64,000 nt of DNA. Origin: Kondoa malvinella (lineage: Eukaryota; Basidiomycota; Agaricostilbomycetes; Agaricostilbales; Kondoaceae). The notes beneath the pieces are model-generated. The model had not been told where the DNA came from and did no database searches. It worked only from the letters and a program-made list of their open reading frames with translations. The translations under genes were made by a program, and so were the position numbers. Shown here piece by piece: positions 57,039-64,000 of the stretch (the stretch's first letter is position 1; each line of letters begins with the position of its first letter). The stretch lies in NCBI GenBank assembly GCA_039545315.1, contig BCIM01000014.1:372001-436000 (forward strand). Reading direction: 5' to 3'.

Positions 57039-58260
57039 CATGGGACTGTTTCGGTGTCCCTTTTCGAGCATTGCTCTTGGTATTGCCCTGTTTGTCGGTC
57101 GGATTCGTCGTTGACATCAAAGCTTCGTTCTGCTCGACGAAGTGGCTTCTTTTTGGCTGACCCTACTCTGACTCGTGCCAGCTTGCATACGCCTGCGGCA
57201 GCTTTCTCTACTGCTCCTGAAGCGCTTCGTGAGTCCTGGCACGTTGCGTCTGCAAGAAATAGCTGATCTCGAGTCAGTGCGGACGTGTGACCTCCCAGTC
57301 CCTCCGGTTCCCTAGCTTGTATCGCTCTAGCCATCGCTATTTGCACCCAGCACTCCTACGCTCTACCTTTACTTTGTGCGGATGGACAAGCCGATGTCCT
57401 CAACGTATGTCTACACCCTCTGCGCGCCTGGATGGTCTGATCGTATGCTAGGAATCTACTCGTACCAAAGATGACATTCTGAACGCATCGGCAAGAGTTC
57501 AAGTTCGCGACCTCGCTTGTGCTACTGTCAATGCTCGGATCGCTGGCGGAGATGCTCCTCTCGCTTCAACAAGCGCTAGAGTCATCATTGGTAATGATGA
57601 TGTGAGCTATGTCCTGTACCAACCATTTACCTGTATTGACTTCTTTCTTTAGCAACAACGCGCTCAGGCCGAAACTCAAGATGCTGAGCGGACCTTCAGT
57701 ACTGCAGACAAAATCAAATTTGTCAGACCTCCTCAACAACAAGGAGGTGAGCAATCACGACTCAACAACTCTGGACCAGTCCAAGATGAGGTCTTTGATC
57801 CGGAGAGCAACAGAAAGATTGGCGTGACCAATAATTCTGGATCGCGCAAAGACAAGGTCTCCAATCCTAACAGCAATAGGAAGATTGGCGTGGCTACTCA
57901 ACCTGAGCCTGAAGATGTTGTTGACGTCAATTTGGGCGACAAGAAGGATATCTGGAATCTAGTCAAGGCGGATCCTATTGCTCGCGTTGGTGTGAGCTCT
58001 CTTCCTCTTCTTACATGTCCGCCAGCTGACCATCATTGCAGCTTCCTACCAACGATGGAAACAGCGAGTCTGCTCGAACTCAGGCCAACATTGAGAAGAT
58101 CAACAACAACGCCCAGCAGTCTTCTGATAAACCTAAACAAGATTCAGAAAAAGCTTGCCGTCCTAATGCCCACCAGGCTAAACTCGCTCTGCCTCCCAAA
58201 CAAAACAACCAGCAACAAGGGGATCCTCAATCTGCTGGTACCGCTGGTCTTTGCTTGATT
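57039..58260 (+). CDS. Probable secreted protein with internal repeats, start uncertain
   Basis: Unknown family. A hydrophobic stretch, LACIALAIAICTQHSYALPLL (57318-57380), looks like a signal peptide, but no in-frame ATG precedes it. A 5' exon is therefore needed; MGLFRCPFSSIALGIALF from 57039 is one candidate. Later exons read ESTRTKDDILNASARVQVRDLACATVNARIAGGDA, then QQRAQAETQDAERTFSTADKIKF, then a repeat region: DPESNRKIGV and NPNSNRKIGV, and VVDVNLGDKKDIWNLVKADP. A similar [19 protein letters not shown] appears in another frame just after the apparent stop at 58260. That may be spliced on through a donor inside the last exon, or may be a frameshifted remnant. The protein is Asn/Gln/Asp rich and soluble. 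Confidence 0.5.
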
Positions 58261-59174
58261 TGAATTTGGGTCAACCGAAGGATAGTGGCAATCTGTTTGA
58301 TTTACCTGGTTTGGCTGCACGCCTGCTGGCGACATTCGCTTCCGCCCGTCACTACCCACAACATGGCAGACGACAGCACTGACCCCATCCTGAATCAAAT
58401 TCGCCGTGTTCAGCTGTTCAACAGATCAAGCGATCGAGTAAAGGTCATCTTCCAGCGAATGCGATTCTTCAGAGTTTAGATTCGCAGACTTTGGACTTGT
58501 AGATTGCCTGCTAGACATGATCGTAAAATTGGACATGACCAAACAGAGTGCTCAGTCTCTGGTAGACACTGGCGACAGGCTAAGCAGGCTAGGCGCTATG
58601 AAGCACGATGTTGAGAGTACTAAAGGCCCTGTGACATGTCACATTTCACAGGCGACGAGAAATTGTGGCGTCAGTTTCCTGTCGACCGACTCAAGTATTC
58701 AATCTCACGCCTTGTCCCATCGCTACTTGTCAAACTGCGCAGCAGCTCAAGATTCAATCGGAAGGAGATATCATCATGAATTCACAATTGCCATACAATG
58801 ATGGTCAGCTCGATGAAAGGCCCAATACCGACGTGACTCTTCGAATTTGGGAAGCCTCTGCAAGGTCGCCAAGTAGTACTTTGCGATCAATGTGCGCATG
58901 ACACGCTCGCCAGCTTCTTTGAATTAATTACGGAATGGGAACGCATTCCCTTTCCCAAGTCACTTGGATGCGATGCGCCCTCCGCCCTCCACTCCCTCCG
59001 CCCTCAACTCTTGCGCTTGCAGTCTGACGGATCGGCGACAGCTCTGATACCTCTCTATGACACCTCTGTCTCCTTTCGAAGCCTGAAGCTCCCTCGTTCA
59101 AGCTTGTGTGTATCGCTCCGTCAGGCTACCTCCCTCCCTCAGCTGTTGCCTCTGATCCAGGCTCGCCTTCCGCC
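58261..59174. other. Region upstream of the USP-recombinase gene
   Basis: It contains the displaced repeat unit of the preceding gene (58255-58330) and then no supported exon. At 58932-58950 there is an inverted repeat with the core GGGAA-CGCA-TTCCC, followed by CTCCGCCCTCCACTCC-type pyrimidine-rich repeats at 58978-59010. The rest looks like promoter sequence. Confidence 0.45.
58932..58950. repeat. Short inverted repeat GGGAA-CGCA-TTCCC
   Basis: Perfect 5-bp arms around a 4-bp centre (58937-58950). Overlapping arms GGAATG and CATTCC extend the symmetry to 58932. It lies about 225-240 bp before the start of the USP-recombinase gene. It could be a transcription-factor operator. A recombination site is only a speculation. 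Confidence 0.4.
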
Positions 59175-62100
59175 ATGTATTCAGTCCTCATAGATGCGAC
59201 CAACAGTCCTAGGAGGCAAAGGCAGAAGCGCAGCGTTGATAGCACGGATGCTCAAAGCCAGGTCGGTTAGCTTACCAATTATCTTAGCCTTGTTGAGACA
59301 GTCTGTAGCCCTCCAAAAGGCAAAGACTGGCTAGAGATCACTCTCAAACACCCATCGCTCAAGCTCCATCGTCTCCGCATTCGCCCACCAGGCCTGGATC
59401 GCGACCACAGAGAGAAGCAGTCGATCTCGATTTCGCTCATAGGCCCAGAGAATGTACAAATGCCGGCAATACGTGCTATATCGCGTCACTACTGCAGATG
59501 CTTATCCAAAATCCGGTAATCCGAGCGAAAATCAAGTCTTCCGTTGTCGCTCCTGGAACTCGTGTGGAAAGAAGACTCGTCGCATCCTTGGCATCCTTTA
59601 TGGACGGCATATCTTCCTTTAGAGACACTGTGCTATGTATCAAAGGTATGACAACCAAGCAAGTTCTGATGTGCCGTTAATGAAAGTGGAAGCTAGCTTC
59701 CTCAGGAACGTTCAACAACGACAGACAGCAGGATGCCGGCGAACTCTTCTTTGAAATCTTTGCCCGGCACCTCCAATCAGTAGCAAGTGTATCAACCTTC
59801 ACCTTGGCAAGATCTAGGCAGTGCACAGCATGTGGCCTCCAGCGCGAAGGACGTGTATTTCCAGAGCAAATGCTCGACGTTCCGACCAATGGCGAAGGTG
59901 TTTTTGCCGGCATCATCGGAGCAGCGTTGGCTTCTACCGTCACAGATGACACTCCATGTTACAAGTAAGTGATTGCTTGTTGGATCGGCGACTATCTCTC
60001 ATATCAGGTTGTATAGCCGGCCGGCATGCCAGAGCATGTCATTGCGCGAAGAATGCACAATCCCGCAGTCTGGTCCTATCATTTTTCTTGACCTCAAGCG
60101 CTTCATTTACACCCTGCGAAACGGCGAGAATGTTGCCGCAAAGATCTGCGCACCCTTCCACGTAGAAGAGGAGATCATAGTCAATGAGGTAAGCTTGCTC
60201 TCTCACGAAGACCAGCCTGTATGGCTGACTGTCCGGTGAAGAAACGGTATTGTCTGTGTTCTGCTGTGATCCACTTGGGTCCAAGTATGCAAGCTGGGCA
60301 TTACGTAGCTCTTGTATGGGACTTTGGGCAGGAAGTGGTTTGGCGCTGCGATGATGCTGTCATTCTGGCTCAGAACACTTGGCAAGGAATCCAGGATGCC
60401 TATTTGCTGTGCTACATGGAAGGATCGGTATGTTTCCTCGATTGATGGAGTTCACTGTTGATTCCATTGCAACTAGGTGTTTGATCAATCAAGCAGATTG
60501 GCACGAGCGGCCACTGCACCACCTCCGACTGCCTCTACATATCCTTCTGTCCGAGACGCCGAACAAAACGTTTCACCTTCTCACACTCCCTTTCAAGTCT
60601 CAAATAAACGTCGCAATTTTCCGCTGATTCCGGATGGGATTTCGAAGAAGATAGTCACAATCTCCACGTGGCTTGCGGAAGCTCTCCAGATTGATGTCGA
60701 ACCAGTATCGTCTCTGGACGATACCCTCTCCAGCTTTATCCTACATCGCATGCGAATACCAGTAGAAGCTGACGTTGAAGAGCTTTACGCTCATTTACGC
60801 AAACAAATCGAAGTGACAAGCGTCTCTCTCAGAAGCAACGACGAGAAGATCGCATTCACCCTGTCGCTACAAGATACTGTCTTCGCAACGAAAAGAACAG
60901 ACCGTCATCGCGGCTCTCGCATACTTGGGTCTTCCGGAGTCTCTCTACCTGACGCTCAATCCGGAACACTTGTACTACTCGAGAAAAGCAGCGCTCGATC
61001 TGAAGTTCAGCTCCTTTTACCCAGTAAAGACGCGATAGCAAAATTAGCTGAATTCGCTAGAGCTACGAGCTGTCCACCGCAATACATGCGCGAGCTGTGC
61101 TTAAAAAATGTTCAAGAATTGAGCGAGAACTCTATCGAATTGGGGGGCCTGCGATGGCCTGACATAATTAGGTGTGTTGCATCGGGATTGTGAGACGGGC
61201 ATGGTTGATCTCTTTTATCAGACCACTTTTTGAATGCTCAAAAGCAAAGCTTGCACTGCCAAAGAAGGACATGCGATCCATTATAGAGCTACTCTTACAA
61301 CCAACACTCTCTCAAGCCTCAAATCTTTACATTACTCGCCTCAGAAGCCCACTTCCAGAAGACGTCACCCTATTCCTCGAACCAGATTTCCGTGCGATCG
61401 TTGTCCATCAACCAATCCTTGGCAGACATCCTCATCTCTTCTCATACCAAGAGGTCAGCAAAACAGTGTTGTCCTCACTTTGCGAAAGATTGGCCGCCGA
61501 CTATCAGCTAGAAAGTGAAGCACTCAGCCTTGGTAAATCTGCCTGCTTGCCCATCATCCGTGGAATCTTTCGCTCTGATGGACTGCTCAATCTTTCAATA
61601 CTCGATGTTCAGATCGCGCCCTTGTTGCGTGCCGCCTTCTCTACGACTCGGGCCGAAGATCAAAGCGGTCTTTTCGATTTCAGCAGCATGCCAGCATTTG
61701 ACCCATCGGCACAGAAGATTCCAGCTGTACGACTCTACGCGAGAACCTCAGATGAAGATCGTTCAACCAAGGCAGGCGAGAGCCTTGCTCGGCAGATTCT
61801 CGCTTCTGCTCTGCACCCTCCTTCCTGCATCCGTCAAGATTTCGCCAATGTCGAGAACTTAGAGACCAGTCACGAACACGCATCAAGTATGCGCCACGCT
61901 TTAACGGACCGGCTTGCTTTCACCAAAATGGTCAGAGATCTACCCGCCGGCTCTGTGATCCTTTTCTCCAATATCGACAGGCTCACAAGACGTCTTTCAG
62001 ATGTGCCCGTTGTCCAAAAAGCCATCACAGACAAGGGACTGAAACTATATAGTAGAGGATTCCTGGAAGCGGAGTTTGAAGCAATTAGGCAAGCAGAGAG

Positions 62101-63861
62101 TGAGGAGTCAGGAGAGGAAGAACCAGATTGGGGTAGATGGCTTGTTGAAGGGGAAGAAGCTGCGCCCGGGACCGAGACATGGGTCTTGATCAATACCAAT
62201 TTGGATTTGGTCAAATTACATCTCAAGAATGCACTGGTGCTTTCCGAAGAACACGCTTTCTACACCGACTCTTGCCTGATGATGGACCGAATATTGCAAC
62301 TCAAAGAAGAAGGCCAACGACGGTTCATCTGTCTTTTGGAAGCCATTCAGTCGTCTATCTTGCAATATCTTTACGCCAACAAGCTCCACAAGATTATTAT
62401 TGTAGCTAGGACATCTCAAGATAGTCAAAATTCGATCAGGCGACAGCGGTGTTTTCTTAAGCTCTGGCTACCTCCGGGCTTTGCGGCCGAAGTCATCGAA
62501 TTACCAGCTCAATCGGCAATTTCCAGCAATGTGGTACATCAAGCTTTAGACAAGGCTCGATGTGCATCCTCTTTGGTCTTGTTTACATCAGTGGACCGCC
62601 TTTGTCGAAGTACCGAATTTCTTGCTCAGCTTTTCACCACAGCCAGGAACAGACAGCAGCATCTGATGGGATTCGTTTGGCAAGCTCGAGACTTTCAAGC
62701 TTGTCGCACACACGTGCTGAATTGCGGCCCACTCCTCGAGAGAGAGCTAAAAGCCAGTGCTGCATACTTCAACACGGCTCGGAGCCTTCCTTTGATTGCC
62801 CCTATTATCATAAATCAAGAGCACGGAAGAGCTATGCAACGGCTGAGCAAAGAAAGGGCCGCTGTAGGAGGAAATTTTGCCAGTGCTTTGCAGAGCTCTA
62901 GCTTTCAAGGCAATCTGGACACGGTGATTCCTCAATTATTGCAGACCGGAAGATCATCCAGCATAGATAGGGACAAGACAGGTGAGCTCTTCGCGCCTGT
63001 CGGGGGAGCAATGTGCTGATTAACAACGCAGCGCTCCTCTGGCAAGACAACTTCAAGTCTAAATTCCCTCTTGTCAAAGACGTCAAAAGCTGTTGGTTTT
63101 GGGGCAACTCGGCCTTCGATTGCAAGTGCAGCGTCGAAACGCATGATCTAGAGGGCTGCTTTTGCCACTGCGAGATCTGCACCCTCGCCCGAGAACGAAG
63201 TTGCCCATCCCATCGCAACGAGGGAAAATGTCCAGTGCTCTGTCCTTGTCGCTGCAAGAATCACCACACGGGAGCCAACACAAACAATCAGACAGATCAG
63301 TCTCCCTCTGGGCATAGCGAGACCGTATCAAGCCAGTCAGACGAAGAGCAAGTCATTGAAAGCAAACGGAAGCAAAGGCAGACAAAGACGAAGAGGACAG
63401 CACGTAAGTCTGTATACATATTGCCTTCGTCGAGATATTGACTTTGTGGTATAGCTGCGCAAGTCAAGAAGACCGTAGCTGAACCAACAAAGGAGACTGT
63501 CACCAAGTCAGCAAAGGCGAATGTCGCTAAATCAGCAGTCGAAAAGAACGCCAAGGAAGTTGAGCTCAAAAAGTGTTCTTGCAAGAAGACCTTTACCGGC
63601 GCAGGCTCTCTGTGTGGTACCTGCTACCGCAAGAACGCTGCAAAACAGAAAACCGGAACAGACGGCAAGAAAAGATGCGAAGCACGGGCCTGCAGTAAAG
63701 TCTGCTCGAACAAGAAAGCAAAATACTGCTCAGTCCAATGCTTGACTACCGAGATGGGCAGAGCAGGCAAAGAAGTCCCGACCTGTAAGGTGACTGGCTG
63801 CGAGAAGGTTGTTATGCCTGGTTTGGGAAGGGCATGTGAGACACATGTTGTGCGCAAATAG
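59175..63861 (+). CDS. Ubiquitin-specific protease fused to two serine-recombinase-like domains and a cysteine-rich tail
   Basis: Nine exons (59175-59261, 59309-59645, 59706-59964, 60008-60188, 60242-60427, 60477-61171, 61222-62981, 63032-63403 and 63455-63861) sum to exactly 4284 nt (1427 aa). Residues about 80-340 form a complete USP: Cys box TNAGNTCYIASLLQML (Cys85), QQDAGELFFEIF, IIFLDLKRFIY, His box MQAGHYVALVWDF (His308), WRCDDA and QDAYLLCYMEG. Residues about 340-740 match nothing I know. Residues about 752-850 resemble a resolvase fold: RLYARTSDED (Arg756, Ser758), SLARQ, DRLAFTKMV (Arg812), VILFSNIDRLTRR (Asp834, Arg835, Arg838). A second copy lies at about 974-1060: IIVARTSQD (Ser980), SIRRQ, LVLFTSVDRLCR (Asp1040, Arg1041, Arg1044). 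It lacks the middle arginine. The tail from about 1180 has two Cys/His-rich clusters around a Lys-rich linker. Both enzyme parts could be active, but this is untested. Confidence 0.85.
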
Positions 63862-64000
63862 TAGTGTGGGCACCTAGTAAGGTATGTTTCTCTCCAAAGG
63901 TCAGGTTCGGGTGCTGATGCCTCTGGTCTCCTGCAAGCTGGGCAAGGGCCGTCTATTCGATTCTGATAGATGTACTCGAGTCTGATCTGGCTTCTTTCTG
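63862..64000. other. 3' flank of the USP-recombinase gene
   Basis: The 139 bases after the stop to the window edge hold no recognised feature. The 3' UTR and possibly the next gene lie here or beyond. Confidence 0.4.

Follow-up and report, generated by a model that had tools for sequence, protein, structure and literature searches.

Enzymes that transpose or recombine DNA have been found before in company with enzymes of the ubiquitin pathway. Ginger1 DDE transposases carry OTU or Ulp1 protease domains, a single Trichomonas protein (XP_001314237.1) combines a transposase_11 with a peptidase C19 domain, and the ubiquitin pathway has been suggested to take part in transposition (PMC2836005). 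Oomycete Cryptons bring together a tyrosine recombinase and a C48 (Ulp1-type) peptidase (PMC3212892), and RAG1 is a RING E3 ligase joined to a Transib transposase (PMC10799480). As to serine recombinases, Saccharomyces (Lachancea) kluyveri has six IS607-like genes of this type, acquired from prokaryotes (PMC2715888); these statements follow the excerpts of the four publications available to us. Here we analyze a stretch of 64,000 nucleotides from the basidiomycete Kondoa malvinella (contig BCIM01000014.1, here C14, positions 372,001 to 436,000), called the window below, and describe a predicted gene at window positions 59175..63861 in which a USP deubiquitinase is followed by two serine-recombinase domains. 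We interpret it, with moderate confidence, as a prokaryotic-type serine recombinase that was domesticated and fused to a USP deubiquitinase, and which would now act as a deubiquitinase directed to DNA, with one of its recombinase domains possibly still active.

A predicted deubiquitinase joined to two serine-recombinase domains

The predicted gene, like all its features described here, lies on the forward strand. It runs from an ATG at 59175 to a stop codon ending at 63861, and its nine exons and eight introns give a continuous frame of 1,427 amino acids plus stop. A Pfam search with the spliced protein, together with examination of the individual segments, gave the order, from N- to C-terminus, of a USP domain, a region without an assigned family, two serine-recombinase domains and a cysteine-rich tail.

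The USP (peptidase C19) domain, encoded at 59456..60415 with three introns within it, was recognized by PF00443 (UCH) at residues 79-346 with an E-value of 3.2e-15; among solved structures, USP46 and USP12 are closest to it (best E 4.2e-6). The preliminary description of this sequence had noted that the Cys and His boxes are kept; both are present, and so is the Asp that follows, which completes the catalytic triad as Cys85, His308 and Asp325. By its UCH profile and its triad, this part of the protein is a predicted deubiquitinase.

Both recombinase domains are encoded by a single exon, 61222..62981, within a 615-amino-acid open frame (61172-63019) that matches PF00239 in two stretches (E 1.9e-11); on the spliced protein the two domains together gave an E-value of 4.7e-11. 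Domain 1 (61733..62053) and domain 2 (62396..62665) were each delimited with PF00239, alignments (A2 and A4 for domain 1, A5 for domain 2), active-site residues, and a predicted model with a fold match. Cut out and searched alone, each scored above the curated Pfam cut-off of 23.3 bits, domain 1 with 29.0 bits (E 1.3e-6) and domain 2 with 25.2 bits (E 2e-5). Alignment A2 supplied 30 bacterial rows (29 of 79 loci plus L024) for a local profile, from which the window rows that this alignment also contains were left out. In the full protein this profile gave domain scores of 21.5 bits for domain 1 and 11.3 bits for domain 2, 36.0 in all, with a best domain score of 7.5 in 2,000 shuffles; on the recombinase exon the scores were 23.3 and 13.0 bits, 38.7 in all, with a best value of 9.9 in 10,000 shuffles. 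No third recombinase copy was found in the protein by this profile.

Searches of other collections favored domain 1 and supported domain 2 weakly. In PHROGs, the recombinase exon was matched as a DNA invertase (1.8e-10), domain 1 alone with 2.8e-7 and domain 2 alone with only 0.0044. In tblastn searches with domain 1, a "recombinase family protein" came first among plasmids (2e-3), and the next 19 rows, of the best 20 from 2,944 records, had E 5; among phages, seven records were found at E<=10, the best two being serine integrases (9e-3 and 0.7) and the remainder unannotated, hypothetical or unrelated. Domain 2 gave nothing significant against plasmids (best E 4, a recombinase family protein). 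The 615-amino-acid frame had no match at E<=1 in NCBIfam or PADLOC; at E<=10, NCBIfam returned nothing for domain 2 and, for domain 1, two matches far under cut-off, of which one was to a serine-type invertase family (E 0.12). Two scans of viral contigs yielded no confirmed relative of domain 1 or of an Ishikawaella recombinase. A PDB profile search with alignment A5 did return serine recombinases; it is not counted as evidence here, because 22 of the 24 rows of its profile are bacterial.

A chance resemblance could be argued from the bare pattern R-x-S...D-R-[LIVM]-x-R, which is found in 122 of 10,000 shuffles and is weaker evidence than the profiles, and from phmmer searches of the PDB with the exon or either domain alone, which found no recombinase at E<=10. 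Against it stand two separate stretches above the Pfam cut-off, domain scores above the best shuffle in both sets of shuffles, and the PHROG and tblastn matches. We consider its probability negligible, and the profile controls refute it in practice. The proposal of the preliminary description that both segments are related to serine recombinases is borne out by Pfam, by the local profile and by predicted folds, and their identity as serine-recombinase homologues is supported. BLAST between the two domains aligned only 15 residues (E 3e-4), so that a recent tandem duplication is not demonstrated.

The two domains differ in their active sites

Active-site columns were taken from alignments A2, A4 and A5 and are named in gamma-delta resolvase numbering (R8, S10, Q14, R45, D67, R68 and R71). 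In domain 1 the equivalents are R756 (R8), S758 (S10), R812 (R45), D834 (D67), R835 (R68) and R838 (R71), and in domain 2 R978 (R8), S980 (S10), Q984 (Q14), D1040 (D67), R1041 (R68) and R1044 (R71). The R-x-S ... D-R-L-x-R pattern initially reported for both segments, with its R8, S10, D67, R68 and R71 equivalents, is thus present in each, and these five positions are invariant across the 32 rows of A2 (30 bacterial rows and both domains). The R45 column holds at least 90% Arg; domain 1 has this arginine, 22 residues ahead of D834, which is also the distance from R45 to D67 in gamma-delta resolvase, and domain 2 has Ser/Asn there. Position 14 is Arg in domain 1 and Gln in domain 2, as in most rows.

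Because the R45 equivalent is found in domain 1 and not in domain 2, the two domains are probably unequal as enzymes, and domain 2 was classed as a degenerate homologue rather than a complete recombinase. Judged by these residues, the two domains are degenerate at different spots, and of the two, domain 1 is more likely to be active. The predicted models of both match the resolvase fold, a match to be read with the fact that the models were themselves built on resolvase alignments. The stretch between the domains (62087..62380) has an acidic start and low model confidence over much of its length (pLDDT <50 at model residues 138-189); Pfam found no family in 62051-62380. No DNA-binding domain of the HTH, recombinase or MerR type was matched above the Pfam cut-off beside the recombinase domains, nor was any family found above cut-off in 61223-61720, ahead of domain 1, where an N-terminal DNA-binding domain like that of IS607 was sought.

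The missing R45 equivalent of domain 2, the arginine that domain 1 has in place of Q14, and the lack of an adjoining DNA-binding domain recognized by Pfam would all agree with two catalytically dead domains, serving the deubiquitinase only as protein-protein or dimerization modules. However, both domains keep the serine and the R8, D67, R68 and R71 equivalents, which relaxed domains need not keep. We therefore judge this explanation unlikely, while leaving it appreciable weight, and prefer a pair in which domain 1 may still be active.

Probable splicing into a single gene

The preliminary description had stated that the spliced frame closes exactly at 4284 nt. This is correct and not unique: with five introns held fixed, the three uncertain ones were tried in 336 combinations, of which eight gave a full-length open frame, two of them of exactly 4284 nt. 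The ten candidate introns listed are all GT-AG and 43-60 nt long. The USP frame is joined to the recombinase frame by a predicted 50-nt intron, 61172..61221 (GTGTGT...ATCAG, with a branch-point-like TTGAT), and the recombinase exon is followed by a second predicted intron, 62982..63031 (GTGAGC...CGCAG). The exon lying between the USP part and the recombinase exon (60477..61171), in which Pfam found no family (60477-61169 searched), has a coding signal of 0.169 bits per codon in frame, the best among the six frames.

On read-through of 61172-61221, the frame meets a stop at 61191-61193, according to the open-frame list, and the recombinase frame has its first in-frame ATG at 61271. The locus could accordingly be read as two neighboring genes, the first encoding a deubiquitinase and terminating at 61193, the second encoding a recombinase and beginning at that ATG. 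Such an arrangement would have to fit a terminator and a promoter into only 77 bases, and it would ignore an intron with the usual sites that resembles the other introns of the gene; we consider it very unlikely. One gene encoding one fusion protein is favored, given that only 77 bases would separate two genes and that the intron carries the usual signals; this single-gene reading is based on splice signals and frame.

Retention of the same intron would yield a protein with the USP part only, and alternative splicing at 61172-61221 could lead to two protein forms.

A probable host gene rather than a mobile element

The assembly comprises 19.09 Mb in 20 contigs. A six-frame search of this genome with PF00239, introns ignored, returned at E<=10 two places, both in this gene, and none elsewhere; at E<=1, the recombinase exon had no match other than itself. 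Codon use in this exon gave 0.142 bits per codon in the correct frame and no more than -0.01 in the others, relative to a reference of seven long open frames in the window (2,765 codons), which were not checked as genes. Exons 1 and 8 had no clear frame preference in codon use. Only short or imperfect repeats were seen in a search of 57500-64000 for terminal repeats, and terminal repeats may be absent in recombinase-type elements, according to the excerpt available on IS607 elements (PMC6188088). No other recombinase family, DDE transposase or tyrosine recombinase, was among the Pfam matches, and the enzyme is of the serine-recombinase type.

The protein might instead belong to an element that is still or was recently mobile, in which the recombinase would move DNA and the USP domain would protect or repair, as has been proposed for Ginger1. 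Ubiquitin-family proteases do recur in eukaryotic elements, as the excerpts cited above record for Ginger1 (OTU/Ulp1), Trichomonas (C19) and oomycete Cryptons (C48). A further point weighs against a settled host gene: some 1.75 kb downstream of the gene end, a second, truncated version of the USP start, Cys box included, runs into a dispersed repeat. This copy (L020:3493-3876, C14:437493-437876) is located about 1.5-1.9 kb past the window end and shares with the gene 63% identity over 38 residues and 50% over 57. It resembles a tandem duplicate that has been disrupted; it is strongly diverged, and there is no recombinase match there. The single-copy recombinase exon, the short and imperfect flanking repeats, the eight introns, and codon use resembling that of the long open frames of the window likewise argue against mobility, and we regard a mobile element as improbable. 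Domestication is favored over a live element because the gene is single-copy, has introns and host-like codon use, and lacks clear terminal repeats, in keeping with the earlier suggestion of a domesticated mobile-element recombinase.

The cysteine-rich tail and the neighborhood of the gene

The tail (63032..63861) is basic and rich in cysteine, and is encoded by two exons separated by an intron at 63404-63454. It contains several regularly spaced Cys/His clusters, which by their pattern are probably zinc-binding, and it may represent an undescribed zinc-binding module; Pfam gave only matches below cut-off. For the first exon of the tail (exon 8), a frame other than its own gave the best coding signal, and the last exon had no other match in the genome better than E 0.245.

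The dispersed repeat is up to about 89 bp long and was found, with 95-99% identity, at L020:3858-3946 and in nine other places among the matches listed (C2, C3, C4, C5, C13). It has a sharp common end resembling that of a mobile element. A longer copy with 97% identity lies inverted at C14:442768-443438, and at one of the three repeat loci that were scanned, L108, a tRNA is located about 270 bases from the repeat. Upstream of the gene, an open frame contains a 66-nt unit twice head-to-tail, 73% alike (57763-57894). The downstream gene, at L020:4897-6568, is presumably a VIP1/PPIP5K inositol-pyrophosphate kinase, judging by its motifs.

Discussion

The architecture of the predicted protein, its homologies, its catalytic residues and its single copy are read from the sequence, and from there we infer that the gene is expressed as a single protein, together with its targeting to DNA, its substrates, any residual cutting and its domestication. 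The presence of a USP domain and two recombinase domains in one gene suggests a captured recombinase that is now linked to ubiquitin control. In the sequence of events that we propose, a prokaryotic-type serine recombinase would have been captured and then turned into a host gene. The recombinase pair and the cysteine-rich tail would place the protein on DNA, the two domains substituting for a recombinase dimer within a single chain, and the USP domain would strip ubiquitin from chromatin or DNA-repair proteins at the bound DNA. Domain 1, whose main catalytic residues are kept, could still cut DNA via Ser758, and domain 2, which lacks the R45 arginine, would more likely be a structural partner. 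A bolder version, which we think distinctly unlikely, is a nuclear enzyme that couples DNA cutting by an active domain 1, with domain 2 as its built-in partner, to deubiquitination at the same site, acting like RAG1 in programmed rearrangement or in repair.

The preliminary description knew of no described fusion with a deubiquitinase. For serine recombinases, no such fusion was found in the open PMC literature by title and start of abstract, among the matches listed; these matches include Wolbachia papers in which both terms occur. The word "resolvase" is absent from the main text of PMC10799480, and in the excerpt available of PMC4102429 it denotes Holliday-junction enzymes only. In the wider sense the statement has to be softened, as fusions of proteases with transposases have been published, including that of C19 with transposase_11 (PMC2836005, in excerpt). 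Queries with the recombinase region and the USP region against a set of 5.8 billion proteins returned nothing at the thresholds used; ordinary USPs were also missed there, and the result is therefore not read as absence from other fungi.

Ubiquitin-family proteases had already been met with DDE transposases and, in Cryptons, with tyrosine recombinases. Serine recombinases would add a third, unrelated class, and this suggests that the removal of ubiquitin has been repeatedly useful to DNA-cutting enzymes in eukaryotic nuclei. The gene also provides a specific eukaryotic candidate for the domestication of a serine recombinase, with Ser758 and Cys85 as predicted catalytic residues.

Like USP46, USP12 and other peptidases C19, the USP part has the UCH profile and the Cys, His and Asp boxes, and it differs in being followed by recombinase domains and a cysteine-rich tail. 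With the small serine recombinases of PF00239 (Tn3/gamma-delta resolvase, DNA invertases), both recombinase domains share the profile, the order of secondary structures and the R8, S10, D67, R68 and R71 equivalents, and domain 1 shares R45 as well. In contrast to those enzymes, the fungal protein has two catalytic domains per chain and no C-terminal helix-turn-helix recognized by Pfam, and its recombinase domains follow a deubiquitinase domain within a nuclear gene that has introns. The IS607-like enzymes of S. kluyveri are likewise serine recombinases encoded in the nuclear genome of a fungus, and some of them have changes at catalytic residues, but they are 237-254 amino acids long, have an N-terminal DNA-binding domain and, in the available part of their description, no protease domain is mentioned.

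The remaining comparisons are again with the excerpted accounts cited at the outset. Ginger1 and the Trichomonas protein XP_001314237.1 likewise join a ubiquitin-family protease to a DNA-transposing enzyme, the Trichomonas protease being of the C19 type, as here; their enzymes are of the DDE type, and the Ginger1 protease is of the OTU or Ulp1 type. Most of the Ginger1 families listed in PMC2836005 are multi-copy and have terminal inverted repeats, unlike this gene. Cryptons with C48 similarly hold a site-specific recombinase and a ubiquitin-like protease in one element, but the recombinase is a tyrosine recombinase, the protease is Ulp1-type, and in CryptonS it is a separate protein. RAG1 also unites a domesticated recombinase and a ubiquitin-pathway enzyme in one chain, with a ligase in place of the protease and a transposase of the Transib type in place of the serine recombinase.

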